This document shows, one piece after another, positions 36,793 to 46,479 of a stretch of DNA of 64,000 nucleotides. Below the pieces are notes generated by a model. That model saw only the letters and a list, made by a program, of their open reading frames with translations, was not told the DNA's origin and did no database searches. How positions within the stretch are numbered: position 1 is the first letter of the stretch; every line of letters begins with the position of its first letter. This stretch comes from Cytophagaceae bacterium (GTDB lineage: Bacteria > Bacteroidota > Bacteroidia > Flavobacteriales > Flavobacteriaceae). The stretch is from the NCBI GenBank assembly GCA_002710685.1, contig PALD01000071.1:1-64000 (forward strand). Direction: 5' to 3'. The position numbers and the translations under genes were made by a program.

Positions 36793-36851
36793 TTTTTAGA
36801 CAGGTGTTTTCATTATGGGATTTCTTTGTTTTCTTAATAAAAGATTATGAA

Positions 36852-36872
36852 GTTTGCCGCTGGCTAATTCAA
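36852..36872 (+). promoter_or_regulatory. conserved susC leader element (copy 1)
   Basis: The 21-nt sequence beginning GTTTGCCGCTGGCTAATTC differs at one base from the element before the second susC gene (41852-41872). It lies 13 nt upstream of the ATG, well downstream of the predicted promoter, and so is probably part of the mRNA leader. Confidence 0.65.
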
Positions 36873-36885
36873 TAAATAACATTTT

Positions 36886-39800
36886 ATGAAATCAAAATTT
36901 TTTTGGTGCTTGTCGCTGGGATTGCTGTTTTTTACTCAGCTTTCTTTTGCACAAGAACAATCAATTAGCGGTACGGTAACCGATGGTTCTGGAGTACCGC
37001 TTCCCGGTGTGAACATTGTTCTTAAGGGAACAACAACGGGTACACAATCTGACTTTGACGGAAATTACAACATTTCTGCAAGTCAAGGGGATGTACTTGT
37101 TTTTACCTATGTAGGTTTTGCCGATCAAGAAGTGACGGTAGGAGCCACATCAACAGTCAATGTTTCCCTAGAGGCTGGGGAAGCACTCGATGAGGTCGTG
37201 GTTACGGCACTTGGTATTTCCCGTGAGAAAAAAACCCTGGGTTATGCAACTGAAGAGGTATCTGGTGAACAAGTTAGTACGGTTACCCAGGGAGGTAATA
37301 TTGCTAACTCCTTATCTGGTAAGGTTTCTGGACTTCAGATTAAGCGTAATAGTAACATAGGTGGTTCTACTAACGTATTGCTTAGGGGTACTAATTCCTT
37401 GACGGGAAATAACCAGGCCTTGTTTGTGGTAGATGGCGTTATTATTGACAACTCTAATACAAATGGTACCTCACAGCAGCAGGCGGGCGCGGGATTTGAC
37501 TACGGTAATGCCGCATCTGATATAAACCCTGACAATATTGAGTCTGTAAACGTGCTTAAAGGTGCTGCGGCAACTGCATTATATGGTAACCGTGCTTCTA
37601 ATGGTGCGATTATCATAACTACAAAGAGTGGTCAAAAATCTGAAGGGATTGGCGTGACCATCAATTCAGGTGTGCAGATAGGGCGTGTGAATAAAGAGAC
37701 TTTCCCTACTTATCAAAGTCAGTATGGTGCTGGGTATGGTGCTTTTTATGGTGGTACAGATCCTTATTTCTTTGAGGGTGATGTTGATGGAGATGGAAAT
37801 GATGATTTGATTACTCCCCTCTCTGAGGATGCGTCTTATGGTGCGGCTTTTGATCCTAATCTTTTAGTGTATCAATGGGATGCTTTTTTTGATCCTACCA
37901 GCCCTAACTTTAATACTCCTACTCCATGGACATTTGCAGGTGATAATGGGCCTATTTCTTTCTTTGATACGGCAGTTACACTTACAAATAGTGTTGCGGT
38001 ATCTGGCGGGACTGAGAAATCGGCTTTTCGTTTAAACTATTCTAAGTTTGATGCTACGGGAATTATGCCTAACAGCAAACAAAACAAGAACACGATCAAC
38101 TTTAATGGTTCTCATGATTTTTCTGATAAGTTTTCTATTTCAACAAATTTCAACTTTGTAAACCAGAAGACCCTAGGAAGGAACGGAACGGGATATAGTG
38201 ATAACATTATATCAAACTTTCGCCAATGGGCACAGACCAATGTAAACTTTGAAGATCAAAGAAGGGCTTTTGAGCGTACAGGGCAAAACTATACCTGGAA
38301 CTATACCTCGGCAAGTAATGCTACTCCCATTTTCTGGGACAACCCATACTATATACGTTATAGGAACTTTCAAAATGACGAGCGTAACCGTGTTTATGGT
38401 AATTTAGCACTTTCATATGATGTTTCAGACTGGTTTAACGTGCTTGCGCGAGTAACCATGGACTCTTACGATGAGTTCCAGGAAGAGCGTACCTCTGTAG
38501 GGAGTAATCCTGTTTCAAAATATTCAAGGTTTAATAGGACGTTCAGGGAGTATAACTATGACCTGATACTTAATTTTGATAAGGATATATCTGATGACAT
38601 CAGCTTCAATGGACTTTTAGGTACTAACATTCGCCGTAATGACATCAGGTCAATCTATGCAATTACCAATGGTGGACTGGTTGTTCCAGGTATTTTTTCA
38701 TTGGCTAATTCTCAAAACCCTATTGAGGCTCCAATTGAGCAAGAAGAAGAAATAGGTGTTGATGGAGTGTATGCACAAGCAAGTTTTGGATTTTACAATA
38801 CTTTTTTCTTAGAGGGTACAATAAGGAGAGATGCCACTTCAACCCTTCCGGAAGCGAATAACTCTTTCTATTATCCATCTGTAACTGGTAGTTATATATT
38901 TTCAAATAATATAGATGCTAGCTGGTTGAGCTTTGGTAAACTTCGTCTGAATTATGCAGAAGTAGGTACTGGTGCGGAATTTGCGCAGCTACGTGACGTT
39001 TTTGCAAAACCTACTCCATTTGGAAGTGCTAACCTGTTTTCGGTTGGTAGCACAAAGAGAAACCCAGATCTTAAAGAAGAAAGGTTGACCAGTTATGAAG
39101 CAGGTCTAGAATTAGATTTCTTCAATAGAAGGTTAGGTCTTGATGTTTCTTTGTACAAAACAAACACCACAGATCAGGTACTACCACTTAGGGTTTCTGG
39201 TTCAACCGGGTATACAACCAAAATTGTAAATTCAGGTGAACTTGAGAACAAGGGTATTGAAGTTTCGCTTAATGCAACACCGGTTCAAACAGAAGATTTT
39301 GAATGGAACGCAAGGGTGAATTTTGCAAGAAACAGAAACAAGCTCCTATCGCTTTTTGAAGGTACTGACAACTTGGTTCTGGGAAGTTTTCAAGGAGGGG
39401 TGACTTTAAATGGAACAATAGGACAGCCTTATGGAGTTATTAAAGGTACTGATTATGCCCGTGATAATAACGGTAATAAGTTAATCGATGAAGATGGTTA
39501 TTACATCCAGACAGGACCTAATACTGAAATAGGAGATGTGAATCCAGATTATACCGGTGGGGTGTTCAACTCTTTTAGGTATAAAAACCTTAGCTTGAGT
39601 TTCTTGATCGATATTCAAAAAGGTGGTAGTGTATTCTCATTAGACCAATACTATGGTCAGGCTACTGGTCTATATCCTAATACTGCATTCACAAACGACC
39701 TGGGTAATCCTGTAAGAAATTCTATTGAGAATGGCGGAGGGGTTGTTTTTGATGGTGTCACTGAAGATGGGTCGCCCAACACGACCAGGGTGGATGTAAG

Positions 39801-40098
39801 TTCATTTGGGGTTTTTGGTTATCAGACTTTCCCCAATTCAGAGTTTGTTTATGATGCTTCGTATGTTAAACTAAGGGAAGTTGCATTGAGCTATGACCTA
39901 CCATCACAGTTTCTTGATGATATTTTCTTTACAAAAGCAACTTTTACACTTACTGGATCTAACTTGTGGATAATTCATAAGAATGTTCCTTATGCTGATC
40001 CTGAAGCAGGTCTTAGTTCTGGAAACCTTCAAGGTTACCAGAGTGGTGTTTTGCCTACGACAAGAGACTATGGTTTTAACGTAACACTACAATTCTAA
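36886..40098 (+). CDS. SusC/RagA-type TonB-linked outer membrane transporter
   Basis: The 1070-residue protein has a signal peptide ending SFAQ, a carboxypeptidase regulatory-like domain (about 26-105, GTVTDGSGVPLPGVNIVLKG and DFDGNYNI), and a TonB-interacting segment with the plug (from LDEVVVTALGISREKK to about 240). A long beta-barrel follows, with the final aromatic residue (LQF). SusC proteins import glycans or peptides together with a SusD lid. The downstream susD gene starts 11 nt later. Codon use is more AT-rich than in the surrounding housekeeping genes. The substrate cannot be told from the sequence. Confidence 0.93.
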   Translation: MKSKFFWCLSLGLLFFTQLSFAQEQSISGTVTDGSGVPLPGVNIVLKGTTTGTQSDFDGNYNISASQGDVLVFTYVGFADQEVTVGATSTVNVSLEAGEALDEVVVTALGISREKKTLGYATEEVSGEQVSTVTQGGNIANSLSGKVSGLQIKRNSNIGGSTNVLLRGTNSLTGNNQALFVVDGVIIDNSNTNGTSQQQAGAGFDYGNAASDINPDNIESVNVLKGAAATALYGNRASNGAIIITTKSGQKSEGIGVTINSGVQIGRVNKETFPTYQSQYGAGYGAFYGGTDPYFFEGDVDGDGNDDLITPLSEDASYGAAFDPNLLVYQWDAFFDPTSPNFNTPTPWTFAGDNGPISFFDTAVTLTNSVAVSGGTEKSAFRLNYSKFDATGIMPNSKQNKNTINFNGSHDFSDKFSISTNFNFVNQKTLGRNGTGYSDNIISNFRQWAQTNVNFEDQRRAFERTGQNYTWNYTSASNATPIFWDNPYYIRYRNFQNDERNRVYGNLALSYDVSDWFNVLARVTMDSYDEFQEERTSVGSNPVSKYSRFNRTFREYNYDLILNFDKDISDDISFNGLLGTNIRRNDIRSIYAITNGGLVVPGIFSLANSQNPIEAPIEQEEEIGVDGVYAQASFGFYNTFFLEGTIRRDATSTLPEANNSFYYPSVTGSYIFSNNIDASWLSFGKLRLNYAEVGTGAEFAQLRDVFAKPTPFGSANLFSVGSTKRNPDLKEERLTSYEAGLELDFFNRRLGLDVSLYKTNTTDQVLPLRVSGSTGYTTKIVNSGELENKGIEVSLNATPVQTEDFEWNARVNFARNRNKLLSLFEGTDNLVLGSFQGGVTLNGTIGQPYGVIKGTDYARDNNGNKLIDEDGYYIQTGPNTEIGDVNPDYTGGVFNSFRYKNLSLSFLIDIQKGGSVFSLDQYYGQATGLYPNTAFTNDLGNPVRNSIENGGGVVFDGVTEDGSPNTTRVDVSSFGVFGYQTFPNSEFVYDASYVKLREVALSYDLPSQFLDDIFFTKATFTLTGSNLWIIHKNVPYADPEAGLSSGNLQGYQSGVLPTTRDYGFNVTLQF

Positions 40099-40109
40099 AA
40101 TATATCATA

Positions 40110-41561
40110 ATGATTAAGAAAATATTTTTAATAGGTCTGGGACTTGTGCTTGCACAGTGTTCTAATGACCTTGAAGAACTAAATGTGAATGAAAAGGCAT
40201 TCACTGATGTTCCTGCTGAGACACTTATGTCAAACGGTCAGCGCGAACTTGCAGATCAATTGGTCAATACAAATGTAAACCGCAATGTTTTTCGCCTGTT
40301 TGCCCAGCAATGGAGCGAGGCAACTTATACGGATGAGGCGAGATACAATATCTTGACAAGGTCTATACCTGAAAGTCATTGGAATATAATTTACAGGGAT
40401 GTACTGAAAGATTTTGATGAATCCTACAAAAGGATAGAAGCAGAAGAAATCGTAGAGGTAACCCCTGAACAATTTGCCACTGATACAGCCGTAAAGACTA
40501 ATAAACTTGCGATTATACAAATTCAACAAACACTGGCATGGTCAATATTGGTAGATACCTTTGGTGATATCCCATTTACAGATGCTTTGGATATTGATAA
40601 TATAAATCCCACCTACACAGATGATGAGGAGATTTATATGACGATTATAGATAACCTTGAATCAGCATTGGATATGCTTGATGCTTCTTATGACAGCTTT
40701 GGAGGTCAAGACCTTTACTATCAGGGCGATGTATCAAGCTGGATAACTTTTGGAAATTCATTAAAGCTAAGATTGGGGATGCATCTTGCAGATGTTAACC
40801 CCACAAAAGCAGAGCAAATGGTTTCTGAAGCTGCTTCTGATGTGATTTTGACAAATGCTCAAAATGCTACAATCTCCTACTTTAGTACTACACCTAACAC
40901 AAACCCACTTTGGGTTGACCTGGTGCAGAGTAATCGTAGGGATTTTGTTCCTGCAGATACATTCGTGACCGCACTTAACGATCTTGAAGACCCCAGGAGG
41001 CCGGTGTTTTTTCAAGACCCTGTTGATGGAGAATTCCTTGGGGCACCTTATGGAAGCACCGTGACCTATGATAATTATTCTCATATAGGTGCTTTGTTTT
41101 TTACTCCAGATCTTGAGGGGGTGATTTTTGACGCTGCTGAAACCAATTTTCTTTTGGCAGAGGCCGTAGAGAGAAATTTCATAGCAGGAAGCGCTGAAGA
41201 TTATTATGACGCGGCAATCACTGCAAATATGGAATATTGGGGAGTGAGTAATGCTGACACGGCTGCGTATTTGGCACAGGCCGATGTTGCATATAGCACC
41301 GCAGCTGGTGATTTTAAACAAAAAATAGGGGTTCAAAAATGGATAGCTCTTTATAACCGTGGATTTGAAGCGTGGACTGAGTTTAGGCGTCTAGATTATC
41401 CACAGCTGGAAGCTCCCGTGCAATCTGCATTTGATGCAGTTCCTAAACGGTTTACTTATCCAGTAATTGAACAAAACCTGAACAATTCAGGATATTCTGC
41501 TGCTGCTTCTGCCATAGGCGGAGACGAGTTGAGCACTCCGGTTTTTTGGGATGTTGACTAA
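40110..41561 (+). CDS. SusD/RagB-type surface lipoprotein
   Basis: The 483-residue lipoprotein has a lipobox (VLAQC, Cys17) and the helical SusD/RagB-like fold: SNDLEELNVNEKAF after the cysteine, YRDVLKDFDESYKRI, LVDTFGDIPFTDALD and KQKIGVQKWIALYNRGFEAWTEFRR. It covers the SusC pore on the cell surface and binds substrate. It pairs with the upstream SusC and ends at the terminator at 41585. It resembles the SusD-like_2 branch used for glycans or oligopeptides. Confidence 0.9.
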   Translation: MIKKIFLIGLGLVLAQCSNDLEELNVNEKAFTDVPAETLMSNGQRELADQLVNTNVNRNVFRLFAQQWSEATYTDEARYNILTRSIPESHWNIIYRDVLKDFDESYKRIEAEEIVEVTPEQFATDTAVKTNKLAIIQIQQTLAWSILVDTFGDIPFTDALDIDNINPTYTDDEEIYMTIIDNLESALDMLDASYDSFGGQDLYYQGDVSSWITFGNSLKLRLGMHLADVNPTKAEQMVSEAASDVILTNAQNATISYFSTTPNTNPLWVDLVQSNRRDFVPADTFVTALNDLEDPRRPVFFQDPVDGEFLGAPYGSTVTYDNYSHIGALFFTPDLEGVIFDAAETNFLLAEAVERNFIAGSAEDYYDAAITANMEYWGVSNADTAAYLAQADVAYSTAAGDFKQKIGVQKWIALYNRGFEAWTEFRRLDYPQLEAPVQSAFDAVPKRFTYPVIEQNLNNSGYSAAASAIGGDELSTPVFWDVD

Positions 41562-41584
41562 CAAATAAGTACATATATTATATT

Positions 41585-41618
41585 AAAAGCCACCCTGATT
41601 AGGGTGGCTTTTTTTATT
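41585..41618 (+). terminator. terminator after first susD
   Basis: The stem 41585-41596 (AAAAGCCACCCT) pairs with 41601-41612 around the 4-nt loop GATT, followed by a T run. The rest of the 41562-41887 gap holds only the second susC promoter and leader. Confidence 0.92.
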
Positions 41619-41820
41619 AGTTAAAACCAATATTCTTCTTTAACTTAATTTTAATGTGAGTGATTGATGTATTTGTAAATTGAAAGCTTAAAAATTTGTC
41701 AATTTTGAATATTTGATAATTTATTGCATAGCATAATCATTTTTGCATAAAAAAAGTATTAATGGTCATCTTGTGAAGATTATTTAAAGTATATCGAATT
41801 TAGTTACAAGAATCTTAATT

Positions 41821-41828
41821 TATTTTTG
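41821..41828 (+). promoter_or_regulatory. -7 box of second susC gene
   Basis: TATTTTTG is a perfect TAnnTTTG match, about 60 nt before the start codon. The flanking sequence resembles the first susC promoter. Confidence 0.6.
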
Positions 41829-41851
41829 TTTTATAACAAAAAATTAAGGAT

Positions 41852-41872
41852 GTTTGCGGCTGGCTAATTCAA
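41852..41872 (+). promoter_or_regulatory. conserved susC leader element (copy 2)
   Basis: This element begins GTTTGCGGCTGGCTAATTC and matches copy 1 at 20 of 21 bases. It lies 15 nt before ATG 41888, in the mRNA leader by promoter position. Confidence 0.65.
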
Positions 41873-41887
41873 ATTTAAATACGAAGT

Positions 41888-44800
41888 ATGAAAACAAAGT
41901 TTCATTTTCTGCTGACGCTCATGTTAGCGTTAGTGGCGCAAGTCTCGTTTGCGCAAACAAAAACAGTGACGGGAACCGTTACTGATGACAGCAATGTACC
42001 CTTACCTGGGGTGAATATTGTGGTTAAGGGAACTTCTAACGGAACTCAGACCGATTTTGACGGAAATTATTCCTTGGTGGTCAATACGGGGGATGTGTTG
42101 GAGTTTACCTATGTGGGCTTTACGGATAAAGAAATAACCGTAGGTTCTACCAATACCATAAATGCACAACTGGTTGCTGGGGAATCATTAGATGAAGTGG
42201 TGGTAACCGCAGTTAATATTTCCAGAAAACCAAGGGAACTTACCTCTTCAGTATCAACATTAGATCCTGAGCAATTGACACAGACTAAAGCGGTCAACGT
42301 GGCCACGGCTATCGTGGGTAAGGTTTCAGGTTTACAAATCAATACCGTAAACAATGGTGTAAATCCCAGCACGCGTGTTGTGCTAAGGGGTAACCGTTCA
42401 TTATTGGGCAACAACGAAGCCTTGATTGTTGTAGATGGTTTTCCATCTTCAAGAGGCGTTCTTGATAGGATTAACCCTAATGATATTGAGAGTATCAACG
42501 TACTAAAGGGTTCTAATGCAGCTGCTCTTTATGGTACAGATGCAACTAACGGTGTTATTGTTGTTACCACTAAAAGAGGTAGCGGTAAGCTGTCAGTGAC
42601 ATACAATACGATTTATCAACAGGAATCAGTAGCATACATGCCAGAATTTCAAGAAGAGTTTGGTGCTGGAGGTTTTCCTGATGGTACGTTATATCCGCTT
42701 GAAAATGTTAACTGGGGGCCTAGATATGATGGCAGGTTGATTGATGCTAGTGAGACACTTGACAACGGTGAGGTTCTTCAAGTTCCTTTTTCTCCTATAA
42801 AAGATCGTAACAAAAAGTTTTTTGATACCGGTCGCACAATAAGAAATGGTGTAACTGTAAGCGGTGGAGATGACGTGAGTGATTTCTTGTTATCTGTTGA
42901 TCATACCAATGTTGAGGGTATTGTTCCCAGGGATAGGTATAATAGGACAAACATGCGTTTAAAGGCTAGCCGTACTTATGGTAAGCTTGAAGTGGGCGGT
43001 AACCTGTCTTTTTTCCGTCAACACTCTAATACTGTAAGTAACTCAGCAGGTAGGCAAGGTCGTCCAGTTTATTGGAACGTGATAAACACACCTCTCCATA
43101 TAGACTTATCTGACCCTATGTGGAAAAACTGGAGAACTGGGAAATTCACTAGAAATGAAGTTTCTTATTATCGTTTCTATGAAAACCCATATTTTATTAT
43201 TGATACCCAGAGGGAGAAAAATGACCTATATGAGTTTAATATTTTGGCTAATGCCAAATATAAGTTTACTGATTGGTTAGATATATCTACCATAGTTGGT
43301 TATACAGGTAGTACAAGCAGGTTTAAAAGAGAATTTGGTGCTTTTACTTATGATTTCCATTTGCAGAACACATATTCTGAAATTGATGAGTATGGTGCAT
43401 CTACTGCAGATAATATAGGAAATAGTGAGCGTTTTAACAGCGACGTGCTCTTGACATTTGATAAGAGTCTAACAGATGACTTTACTGCAAAGCTTATCGT
43501 GGGTAATAACCTTAGAATCACAAATTCTAAAAGCGTCAATGTTTCTGGGACTAACCTGATTATACCAGATTTTTATAATGTTTCTACAAGGACTGGTGAA
43601 TTAAATGGAGGTGAAAGTTCAACACAGTTTAGGAGAATTGGTCTTTATGGGGATTTAACATTGGGTTTCAGGGATTATCTTTTCTTGAACGTAACAGGAA
43701 GAAACGATTGGTCTTCAACACTTATCAAAGATCAGAGGTCTTTCTTTTATCCTAGTGCAGGTTTGTCTTTTGTTGCAACTGATGCTTTCCCAGTTCTTAA
43801 AGGGGATAATGGTCTAAGTTATCTTAAGGCAAATGTTAGTTATACAAAAACGGGTAATGATCCTTTGGTATATGCAAACCAAAATGTTTTTAGCGCTCCT
43901 GGGAACTTCCCTTATGGGTCAACAGCAGGACTTACGCTTTCTAACATTGAGAGAGATAGATTTTTAAAGCCTGAATTTACCACTTCTTATGAAGCAGGTG
44001 TTCAAATGAGCTTTTTTAAGAGCAGGTTGAATATAGACGCAACAGTTTATAAAACTAATTCAACTGATCAAATAATCCCAATCAATACTTCCTTTGCCTC
44101 TGGAGCTTCACAAGCATATATTAACGTGGGAGAAGTACAGAATAAAGGTATTGAGCTTGACTTGAATGGGACCATCTTAAGAAATGAGAATTTCTCATGG
44201 AATTTAGGTGTAAACTATTCTGGCTTTGACTCTGAAGTATTATCGCTAATCGAAGGTGTTGATGAAGTGGAAATAGGCGGATATGCTGATGCGCAAATTG
44301 TAGCTAGGGTAGGCGAGCCGTTTCCGCTTATTAGGACTTCCTCTTATTTAAGAGATCCACAAGGTAGGGTGATTGTAGGTGATGATGGAGACCCTATTAG
44401 GGATTCAAACAACCAGACACAAGGTAAAACTTCACCTGATTATATAGTAGGTTTAAATACCACAATACGTTATAAAAACTTATCCCTCTATGCAGTTGCA
44501 GATTATAGGACGGGGCATGTATTCTTTAATGATATTGTAAATGCACTTGAATTTACTGGATTGACTAAGCATAGTGCATCATCTGGAAGGCAGCCTTTTG
44601 TATTTCCTAACTCTTCATATTCTGATGGAAACGGTGGTTACACAGCTAATACAAACCGCCTAACCTCAGGGGGTGGAAATGCTTTTTGGGATGCTTATAA
44701 TGATGTTAAAGAAAACTATGTTACAGATGCTACCACACTAAAAATAAGGGAGATAGCGCTTAATTATGATTTGAGCACCAATATGTTGGATGCAATCGGG

Positions 44801-44977
44801 GTAGAGCGTTTTACAGTAGGTCTTTACGGAAGGAATCTACTTACTTTTAGGCCTAAGGATAACGTTTATACTGATCCTGAATTCAACTTTACCACAGGTA
44901 ATGCGATTGGTGTTGGAACACAGTCTCAGACTCCGCCAACAAGAAATTATGGACTAAGTCTTTCTGTAACCTTTTAA
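41888..44977 (+). CDS. SusC/RagA-type TonB-linked outer membrane transporter
   Basis: The 1029-residue transporter has a signal peptide ending VSFAQ, then GTVTDDSNVPLPGVNIVVKG with DFDGNYSL (regulatory-like domain), the plug beginning LDEVVVTAVNISRKPRE, and a beta-barrel ending in LSLSVTF. It resembles the first SusC in the N-terminal 130 residues but diverges in the barrel, suggesting a different substrate. A susD gene starts 5 nt after its stop. Confidence 0.93.
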   Translation: MKTKFHFLLTLMLALVAQVSFAQTKTVTGTVTDDSNVPLPGVNIVVKGTSNGTQTDFDGNYSLVVNTGDVLEFTYVGFTDKEITVGSTNTINAQLVAGESLDEVVVTAVNISRKPRELTSSVSTLDPEQLTQTKAVNVATAIVGKVSGLQINTVNNGVNPSTRVVLRGNRSLLGNNEALIVVDGFPSSRGVLDRINPNDIESINVLKGSNAAALYGTDATNGVIVVTTKRGSGKLSVTYNTIYQQESVAYMPEFQEEFGAGGFPDGTLYPLENVNWGPRYDGRLIDASETLDNGEVLQVPFSPIKDRNKKFFDTGRTIRNGVTVSGGDDVSDFLLSVDHTNVEGIVPRDRYNRTNMRLKASRTYGKLEVGGNLSFFRQHSNTVSNSAGRQGRPVYWNVINTPLHIDLSDPMWKNWRTGKFTRNEVSYYRFYENPYFIIDTQREKNDLYEFNILANAKYKFTDWLDISTIVGYTGSTSRFKREFGAFTYDFHLQNTYSEIDEYGASTADNIGNSERFNSDVLLTFDKSLTDDFTAKLIVGNNLRITNSKSVNVSGTNLIIPDFYNVSTRTGELNGGESSTQFRRIGLYGDLTLGFRDYLFLNVTGRNDWSSTLIKDQRSFFYPSAGLSFVATDAFPVLKGDNGLSYLKANVSYTKTGNDPLVYANQNVFSAPGNFPYGSTAGLTLSNIERDRFLKPEFTTSYEAGVQMSFFKSRLNIDATVYKTNSTDQIIPINTSFASGASQAYINVGEVQNKGIELDLNGTILRNENFSWNLGVNYSGFDSEVLSLIEGVDEVEIGGYADAQIVARVGEPFPLIRTSSYLRDPQGRVIVGDDGDPIRDSNNQTQGKTSPDYIVGLNTTIRYKNLSLYAVADYRTGHVFFNDIVNALEFTGLTKHSASSGRQPFVFPNSSYSDGNGGYTANTNRLTSGGGNAFWDAYNDVKENYVTDATTLKIREIALNYDLSTNMLDAIGVERFTVGLYGRNLLTFRPKDNVYTDPEFNFTTGNAIGVGTQSQTPPTRNYGLSLSVTF

Positions 44978-44982
44978 AAAAT

Positions 44983-46479
44983 ATGAAAATGAAAATAAAA
45001 AAATCAATATTCCTTATTGCATCACTTTTGTTGATGTCTGTAGGGTGCAGTGATTATTTAGAGGTTAACGATAACCCAAATGATCCGCCGATATCGACAC
45101 CTAGTTTGTCATTGCCAGTGGCGCAACAGAATTTTGCATCACTTAATGGTACATCTATGGTTTATTTAGGACAGTTTATGACCTATAATTGGACTACTCC
45201 ATCTAACTGGTCAGCAAATCAAGCTTTGATACGTTATACTATAACAACATCATTTTACAGTAATATTTTTGAATCCTCATATCTTTCAGTGTTTAAGGAT
45301 TTGACCTATATTCAAAATTACGAGGATCCTTCCGGATCCATAGACTATAGTGCATATTATGCAATAGCAGATATTGTAAAAGGATTCCAATATCAACTTT
45401 TGGTTGATTTATATGGTGATGTTCCTTATACAGAAGCTAATTTGAGGGCTGAAAACAGAACTCCTGCTTATGACGATGCTGAAACCATCTATAAGGATGT
45501 TATCGATAAGTTGACTGCTGCTGCTAGTTTGGCACTAAGCTTGCCTGCAAATGCTGAGAATCCTATGGATCAAGATATCATTTTCTATGGCGATATGACA
45601 AAATGGGCTCAATTTGCAAATACCATCAAATTGAGGATGCTTGTAAGGCTAAGTGGTACAGGTCAAGATGCATATATTCAGGAGCAGGTTGCTTCAATAA
45701 ATGCAAATGGAGCTGGTTATATCACAGAAGATGTATCTTCTAATCCTGGTTATTCTGATGATGCTGGAAAGCAAAGTCCTTTTTATGGATATATAGGAAA
45801 AGGTCCTAACAATACAGAAATTGACAGGAATGATTATACTGTGGCCACAGATTATACAATTGATTATTTGTCAAATAGAAATGATCCAAGGCTTACTAGG
45901 ATTTATGCAGAAGCAGACAATGGGGGGTATCATGGAGCTGAACAGAGCACAATACTTCCTGGGTCTGGGTTTACTTCAGATGATTTATCAAAAGTTGGCC
46001 CTGGCCTTTTAACCAGTTCAACTCAAGATCAACCCATTATGTTAGTTTCAGAGGCTTTGTTCATTCAAGCAGAAGCAGCCTTAAATGGATATATTTCAGG
46101 AGGTGACTCTGTTGCTCAGCAACTTTACAATCAAGCTATAGAAGAATCATTTGTTTTCTTGGGAGTTGAAGATGCTGTTAATGAAGCACAGACATACTAC
46201 ACCCAGGACCTTCCTAACGTTTCCTGGACGAGTTCTCCTAATAAACTTGAAGCCATTATTACTCAAAAATGGATTGCCCTTAATGGAACCGCATCCATAG
46301 AATCATGGATTGACCTGACAAGGACCGGTTATCCTTCAGGACTTCCCATTCCCGAAGAATCAGATGGCGTTAGACCTGTAAGATTATTATATCCAGACAC
46401 TGAAGTAGGTAGGAATAGTCAGAATGTTCCTCAGCAGACAGGTAGTGATGCTTTTACTGATGAGCCTTTTTGGAATTAA
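44983..46479 (+). CDS. SusD/RagB-type surface lipoprotein
   Basis: The 498-residue lipoprotein has a lipobox ending SVGC (Cys22), then SDYLEVNDNPNDPP, a typical SusD start. Fold landmarks are LVDLYGDVPYTEAN, NTIKLRMLVRLSG and QKWIALNGTASIESWIDLTRTGYP. It is the partner of the SusC just upstream and belongs to the SusD-like_2 branch. A further lipoprotein gene follows after 12 nt. Confidence 0.9.
   Translation: MKMKIKKSIFLIASLLLMSVGCSDYLEVNDNPNDPPISTPSLSLPVAQQNFASLNGTSMVYLGQFMTYNWTTPSNWSANQALIRYTITTSFYSNIFESSYLSVFKDLTYIQNYEDPSGSIDYSAYYAIADIVKGFQYQLLVDLYGDVPYTEANLRAENRTPAYDDAETIYKDVIDKLTAAASLALSLPANAENPMDQDIIFYGDMTKWAQFANTIKLRMLVRLSGTGQDAYIQEQVASINANGAGYITEDVSSNPGYSDDAGKQSPFYGYIGKGPNNTEIDRNDYTVATDYTIDYLSNRNDPRLTRIYAEADNGGYHGAEQSTILPGSGFTSDDLSKVGPGLLTSSTQDQPIMLVSEALFIQAEAALNGYISGGDSVAQQLYNQAIEESFVFLGVEDAVNEAQTYYTQDLPNVSWTSSPNKLEAIITQKWIALNGTASIESWIDLTRTGYPSGLPIPEESDGVRPVRLLYPDTEVGRNSQNVPQQTGSDAFTDEPFWN

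Follow-up and report, generated by a model that had tools for sequence, protein, structure and literature searches.

The window studied here is a stretch of 64,000 nucleotides (nt) from a member of the Flavobacteriaceae (assembly GCA_002710685.1, contig PALD01000071.1), in which two susC genes are preceded by nearly identical copies of a 21-nt element. This element most likely marks where a sigma-A promoter meets the mRNA 5′ end of susCD operons, and its transcribed part would be the target of a trans-encoded small RNA (sRNA) of about 100 nt. The initial annotation had placed a near-identical 21-mer 13-15 nt ahead of both start codons, and this was confirmed: copy 1 at 36852-36872 (GTTTGCCGCTGGCTAATTCAA) ends 13 nt 5′ of the ATG at 36886, copy 2 at 41852-41872 (GTTTGCGGCTGGCTAATTCAA) ends 15 nt 5′ of the ATG at 41888, and a single mismatch leaves 20 of 21 bases identical. 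A scan of the window allowing up to 3 mismatches gave no match beyond these two copies, and 100 shuffles averaged 0.01 matches and never gave two. Scanning the organism's own genome (4.99 Mb) returned the two copies plus one match with 3 mismatches, and a profile model detected a third copy, one base shorter, at C32:65633-65686 on the minus strand. The leader is present at 3 of the 52 own SusC genes above the family cut-off. The proposal that the element lies upstream of susC genes holds in this genome for one marked subset, and the element as a general mark of SusC was dropped. The leaders of three own-genome SusC genes (L090, L124 and L126) share another motif, roughly AAAACCC.GG.TGGTAA, at most 45 nt from the start.

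The architecture of the leader was derived from a search of 397 family genomes with the element pattern, one mismatch being allowed, which gave matches in 86. Of 78 pattern sites read, 51 precede a SusC-type N-terminus and 27 were dropped for want of one; the first leader profile consists of 49 distinct leaders. Columns outside the search pattern are nearly invariant in this profile, with TTG at -27 to -25 relative to TTTG in 49/49 leaders. The -7 box carries A at -3 in 48/49 and TTTG or TTCG in 49/49, the first T of the sigma-A TA being mostly replaced by G (29) or C (18) and kept in 2. AA follows TTC in all 49 leaders, and a TTAA is conserved in the promoter spacer. Among 110 distinct leaders, the gap from TTG to TTTG is always 24 nt (inclusion required TTG at 22-26 nt), that from TTTG to CTAATTC measures 7 nt in 108 leaders and one nucleotide less in the other 2, and that from TTTG to ATG is 27-31 nt.

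In Flavobacterium psychrophilum, a published study places the sigma-A box TAnnTTTG at -12 to -5 and gives a median 5′ untranslated region (5′UTR) of 24 nt (PMC9723704). As far as sequence can tell, the leaders carry both marks of a Bacteroidota sigma-A promoter, a TTG near -33 and TAnnTTTG at -12 to -5. From the F. psychrophilum box offset, the transcription start site (TSS) of susC is expected at the fifth base past TTTG. By this analogy RRCTAATTCAAA should be the first mRNA bases, and the TSS would fall directly 5′ of GGCTAATTC. In the window, where all the features described here lie on the forward strand, the susC1 promoter has its -33 TTG at 36826-36828, exactly 24 nt before TTTG as in all 49 leaders of the profile. 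Its -7 box (NAnnTTTG, 36849-36856), assigned from the profile and the F. psychrophilum box (PMC9723704), includes the 5′ part of the element. With the box at -12 to -5, +1 would lie at about 36861, the predicted susC1 5′UTR at 36861-36885 and the putative sRNA target from GGCTAATTCAA at 36862 onward. By sequence and leader profile, the susC2 promoter has its -33 TTG at 41826-41828 and its -7 box NAnnTTTG at 41849-41856, and the predicted 5′UTR spans 41861-41887 (+1 at about 41861, target GGCTAATTCAAAT).

The 21-mer is made of two halves, a promoter TTTG half that is not mRNA and a putative mRNA 5′ end. The initial annotation had set the -7 boxes 55-90 nt upstream, which was not borne out, the conserved -7 box TTTG being the element's own 5′ part. 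Its statement that the element is transcribed is expected to hold for the 3′ part but not for the TTTG part, given the TSS offset in F. psychrophilum (PMC9723704); an additional TSS farther upstream may exist. At one locus, L262 (G247:C2 near 10321, minus strand), a hairpin with a T-run, resembling a terminator, lies no more than about 60 nt downstream of the promoter and element. A second element copy stands between this hairpin and susC, and the arrangement may represent an attenuator or a short RNA.

The leader is distributed across the family. A sequence-only leader model, R1, reached E<=0.1 in 281 of the 299 family genomes searched and E<=1e-4 in about 233 of them (hand count), and in eight genomes searched deeper its strong matches were separate from noise. 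All 60 further sites taken from the best R1 matches precede a SusC-type N-terminus, as judged by sequence pattern and not by hidden Markov model. A pattern without SusC information gave at least 120 sites in 118 named loci, of which 118 lie before SusC, 1 is cut off at a stretch end and 1 is a chance match. The suspicion that no other susC gene carries the element fails on these two sets of inspected family sites. The listed matches include the genera Aequorivita (Flavobacteriaceae), Maribacter, Aquimarina, Zobellia, Nonlabens, Mesonia and Salinimicrobium, and in a phylum scan of 247 genomes all 13 with a match at E<=1e-4 belong to the Flavobacteriaceae. In 12 stretches, identity between the window SusC and the SusC bodies that follow the leader is 25-50% (tblastn). 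The susCD operons with this leader would form a family-wide set, probably housekeeping.

Two rival explanations of the element can be dealt with here. The copies could be the residue of a recent duplication, in keeping with the tandem arrangement of the susCD pairs and with the DNA, which is 68% similar along 250 nt starting at about 36825, at the -33 box, and extending into the signal-peptide codons. The SusC1 and SusC2 proteins are only 33% identical, so the genes are not a recent duplication, and the same leader stands in most family genomes searched; this explanation, also raised at the outset, is refuted and keeps practically no probability. The element could also encode a leader peptide in a tiny upstream open reading frame (ORF), M(K)FAAG*, and both window copies do read ATG..TTT GCS GCT GGC TAA. 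Homologues lack an ATG at this place and their codons vary at all positions, which largely refutes the peptide and leaves it scarcely credible.

Some matches lie ahead of other genes. An order-level scan gave two matches outside the family that were read closely, L233 and L239 (both in another family, f8), and neither is SusC. Each has TTG-N24-TTTG and CGGCTAATTCAA, a long leader and then, by eye, an nrdB-like gene. They were taken as unrelated or chance, there being no SusC behind the element. In some GACTAATTC-type genomes the element also stands, by eye, ahead of non-SusC genes, with an outer-membrane protein (OMP)-like N-terminus at L436, a lipoprotein-like one at L475 and further exported proteins at L478 and L499. 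The literature searched, which did not cover subscription papers, preprints and supplements, held no report of this leader or of the sRNA described below.

The initial annotation had proposed looking for a small RNA with a complementary seed, and this led to a conserved, terminator-bearing candidate antisense to the leader over up to 26 nt. In 10 genomes, the complement TTTGAATTAGYC occurs at 28 places, including, besides leaders, several intergenic ones ahead of terminators. The pattern TTATTTGAATTAGYC, which also matches the other strand of leaders, is found in 158 of 299 genomes, while a control matches 13 (hand count). From the part of these sites that was read, 60 distinct non-leader sites were classified: 21 lie in same-strand ORFs (15 of them lysC), 6 in opposite-strand ORFs and 33 in intergenic DNA. 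Among the 33, a terminator lies within 100 nt in sense orientation in 22 and in antisense orientation in 4; random positions in the same loci have one at 18 of 201.

The lysC (aspartokinase) 3′-end complements were considered as a second sRNA family and rejected as coding sequence, making up 15 of the 21 same-strand in-gene sites; the 6 further same-strand and 6 opposite-strand ORF-internal sites were likewise not counted as sRNA. The element is complementary to the codons TTT GAA TTA GTC within the ...YLFELVTL* end of the lysC genes (e.g., L571 and L572). Behind the lysC 3′ end there is a terminator in 12 of 15, by chance or as part of a 3′-derived sRNA. It had seemed at first that GGC/GAC variants of the leader and GCC/GTC variants of the complement correspond within each genome; this was left unused, as it rested largely on lysC sites.

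The candidate is about 100 nt long, previously unreported, and ends in an intrinsic terminator whose hairpin appears in predicted folds. Ten aligned homologues share a box GTCTAT, in most cases a stem CCTAA/TTAGG, an invariant TTTATTTGAATTAGCC (mostly demanded by the search) and a terminator of varying sequence. A model of these sequences, R2, found 24 genomes out of 299 at E<=1e-5, of which ten are members of the model and 14 are new; a genome mostly has a single family-A match. Among 29 matches that could be read, TTTGAATTAGCC is present in 24 and ...GTC in 2, and 3 differ; 10 of the weak matches (E between 1e-4 and 1e-2) coincide with the opposite strand of R1 leaders and were left uncounted. 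Upstream, the motif AAC-N15-18-[CA]GTC of extracytoplasmic function (ECF) sigma factors occurs at 28 of 38 loci, where shuffles predict 0.92, and in F. psychrophilum a CGT box is described as the mark of an ECF-sigma motif (PMC9723704). By group, the motif is found at 25 of 26 loci outside the organism's own genus and at 3 of 12 inside it. With its putative promoter, intrinsic terminator and intergenic position, the candidate has the makings of a trans-encoded sRNA. Rfam gave no family at gathering score for the window and 12 loci.

Predicted pairing between candidate and leader was compared in 25 genomes having both sequences, with one leader each. The mean was -27.6 kcal/mol for own pairs, -25.1 kcal/mol for swapped pairs and -6.8 kcal/mol for shuffled sRNAs, and the own leader ranks first of 25 for 12 of the 25 sRNAs. 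The exact complement reaches 26 nt, extending to the AUG in G149, and falls to 12 nt in G122; leader variants of G108, G088 and G003/G009 are matched by sRNA variants. On average, then, the putative seed is complementary and fits better within than between genomes, and this supports the suggestion, made in the initial annotation, of an sRNA target on SusC mRNAs. The own sRNA candidate has a predicted pairing of -31.0 kcal/mol with the third leader copy, -22.5 with window copy 2 and -18.1 with window copy 1. For 47 other own SusC leaders (starts guessed) the average is -10.4 kcal/mol and the best -17.1.

The candidate gene of the organism itself lies at G000:C68:108024-108156, G000 being the own genome. 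Within the genus, R2 finds at least one match at E<=0.5 in every one of the 13 genomes, and 10 of 13, the own genome included, share the flanking DNA of a syntenic locus; G007 and G012 share a second locus. Across the ten syntenic loci the conserved islands are ATTnGAnTTAGCC and the terminator. Just upstream of the own gene is a putative promoter, GTGCAAC-N16-CGTC. The upstream neighbour is an OMP_b-brl_3 gene (PF14905, outer-membrane beta-barrel), preceded by a CoA-binding gene, and on the downstream side lie a convergent ORF of 131 aa and a clpB-like gene. In G136, of another genus, there are an OMP_b-brl_3 gene, by eye a similar small gene, and a fabH-like gene downstream. A second own intergenic site, G000:C66:10712 (L418), holds an exact TTTATTTGAATTAGTC, and a terminator was not found within 100 nt of it.

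In the proposed mechanism, the transcribed RRCUAAUUCAAAU...AUG would be the target of the sRNA, whose antisense stretch would pair with the short 5′UTR up to the AUG and in one genome over it. Pairing should block the initiation region, which lacks a Shine-Dalgarno (SD) sequence, and/or speed mRNA decay; coverage of the 5′UTR is what suggests repression. In most members the trigger of this repression would be an active ECF sigma factor; stress on the envelope or on OMP assembly would be the simplest occasion, suggested by the promoter type alone. Transcription of the sRNA, like the susC TSS, is something we infer. The promoter architecture, the conservation of the leader, the anatomy of the sRNA gene, the complementarity and the better average fit within genomes can all be read directly from the DNA.

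Several points weigh against this proposal. The permutation comparison, in which none of 5000 permutations equalled the own-pair mean, ignores shared ancestry, and G000 entered it by its best-pairing copy. The own leader ranks 14th or worse in five genomes (G239, G288, G136, G062 and G012, in the last of which it is last). Pairing of window copy 1 is modest, its -18.1 kcal/mol comparing with a mean of -9.3 and a lowest value of -21.1 over 500 shuffles. The R2 match of the own sRNA is weak (E 0.008), with genus synteny as its main support; the ECF motif occurs at 1 of 9 syntenic loci tested, that of the own genome alone; and the predicted fold of the own sRNA has most of the seed paired and its TTAGCC end placed in a loop. 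Conservation of the seed is in part an effect of ascertainment, as 12-15 of 16 invariant bases stood in the search patterns and the model contains them, and some of the evidence derives from sites selected for complementarity. In GACTAATTC-type genomes, the majority of the complement sites inspected are lysC 3′ ends, lie in other genes or lack a terminator, and these were left uncounted as sRNA. The own assembly is listed at 8.79% contamination.

The conserved leader might instead be a core promoter followed by a translation-friendly unstructured leader, the 3′ half being preserved by the needs of transcription start or of SD-less initiation; complementary RNAs would then be incidental. The rigid spacing (24 nt in 110/110 leaders, with 22-26 allowed, and 7 nt in 108/110) and the A-rich region ahead of the ATG agree with this, as does a small gain in openness of the start region over versions with shuffled downstream codons (0.677 vs 0.644; native higher than the shuffle mean in 41 of 56). 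It leaves unexplained, however, the intergenic, terminator-bearing complements in conserved synteny and the better average fit within genomes, and is considered unlikely. An operator for a DNA-binding regulator lying across +1 would account for the strong conservation over the start site and for the TTAA kept in the spacer. No conserved dyad was seen by eye, though, the distance to TTTG shifts by one base in 2 of 110 leaders, the element is found by eye behind other promoter contexts, and its complement sits in sRNA-like genes, which makes an operator very improbable. The sRNA-target reading of the leader is the one retained.

Downstream of the leader, the signal-peptide codons of susC2 contain two predicted hairpins, H1 at 41912-41933 (codons 9-16) and H2 at 41936-41954 (codons 17-23). 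The stem of H1 covaries in homologues. At nt 30-41, a synonymous Thr site (ACG/ACA) goes with an amino-acid-changing Ala GCG/Val GTG site: of 56 rows, 34 are ACG-GCG, 12 are ACA-GTG, none is a mixed Thr pair of these codons and 10 have other codons, while in 173 rows the mixed pairs are one ACG-GTG and one ACA-GCT. A FastTree phylogeny of SusC bodies gives 16 independent contrasts, 15 in agreement with this covariation and 0 opposed to it (sign test 6e-5). On a tree of the cassette itself only 2 contrasts support it, and block transfer of the cassette may underlie it. H1 thus appears to be a conserved coding-sequence hairpin with compensatory changes. H2 is weaker, with a double change at pair 50-66 in 5 of 78 rows, and its covariation was not significant in the tree test. 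By predicted folding, window copy 2 has H1 and copy 1 folds differently. The signal-peptide codons of 56 leader-bearing genes have a mean folding z of -1.64 (p<=0.05 in 48%), and those of 47 other own SusC genes (starts guessed) one of -0.61 (p<=0.05 in 21%), so part of the excess is not specific to the leader. L008 and L069 have the leader without folding excess, and the two are therefore separable.

The two susC/susD pairs of the window sit between RNase HII and prfA/pyrF. The genes susC1 (36886-40098; TIGR04056, 596 bits) and susC2 (41888-44977; TIGR04056, 578 bits) encode SusC/RagA TonB-linked OMPs, and susD1 (40110-41561, PF12771) and susD2 (44983-46479) are of the SusD-like_2 type. A terminator-like hairpin at 41585-41612 (12 pairs, loop of 4, T-rich tail) between susD1 and the susC2 promoter makes the pairs appear to be separate units. 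In a 451-base stretch read on both strands, 2 terminator-like hairpins were found against 0.2 expected.

RybB and MicA target the 5′ region of OMP mRNAs. In the Enterobacteria, both depend on sigma-E and are described as clearing omp mRNAs when the membrane is stressed (PMC1804206). The candidate resembles them in being short, in its putative ECF-type promoter and in having OMP mRNAs as predicted targets. It differs in belonging to another phylum and in being nearly complete antisense to the 5′UTR, and the likeness is noted without a claim of homology; a search of 7 sRNA loci for RybB/MicA homology through Rfam gave no family at gathering score. In Bacteroides thetaiotaomicron, the FopS sRNAs, described along with RbpB, bind near the SusC start codon and repress translation; they form a 14-copy family with canonical sigma-ABfr promoters and an R1 seed (PMC11697453). 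Phylum and predicted target, SusC mRNA near the start codon, are shared with the candidate, which unlike FopS has mostly one family-A match per genome and in most cases a putative ECF-type promoter; homology is not claimed. Rfp18 of F. psychrophilum, which is reported to affect metalloprotease mRNAs (PMC9723704), belongs like the candidate to the Flavobacteriaceae. The candidate circuit would combine the promoter type of RybB/MicA with the target type of FopS.

SusCD transporters count among the main nutrient gates of the Bacteroidota, and in the literature surveyed their post-transcriptional control is described from Bacteroides. For the whole family, there are now a named candidate regulator, a target and the bases predicted to pair. 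Tentatively, and short of calling it probable, the parts can be assembled into a family-wide OMP surveillance circuit that would have evolved independently of RybB and MicA. In it, an ECF sigma factor would drive an sRNA nearly completely antisense to the 5′UTRs of housekeeping SusC genes, and in some genomes to those of other exported proteins, and would turn OMP synthesis off under envelope stress; the H1-type hairpin, in which RNA structure appears to shape the amino acids of the signal peptide (Thr/Ala vs Thr/Val), would be part of the same control region. If true, sRNA control of OMPs driven by an ECF sigma factor would have been invented a second time, in a group that initiates translation without Shine-Dalgarno pairing.

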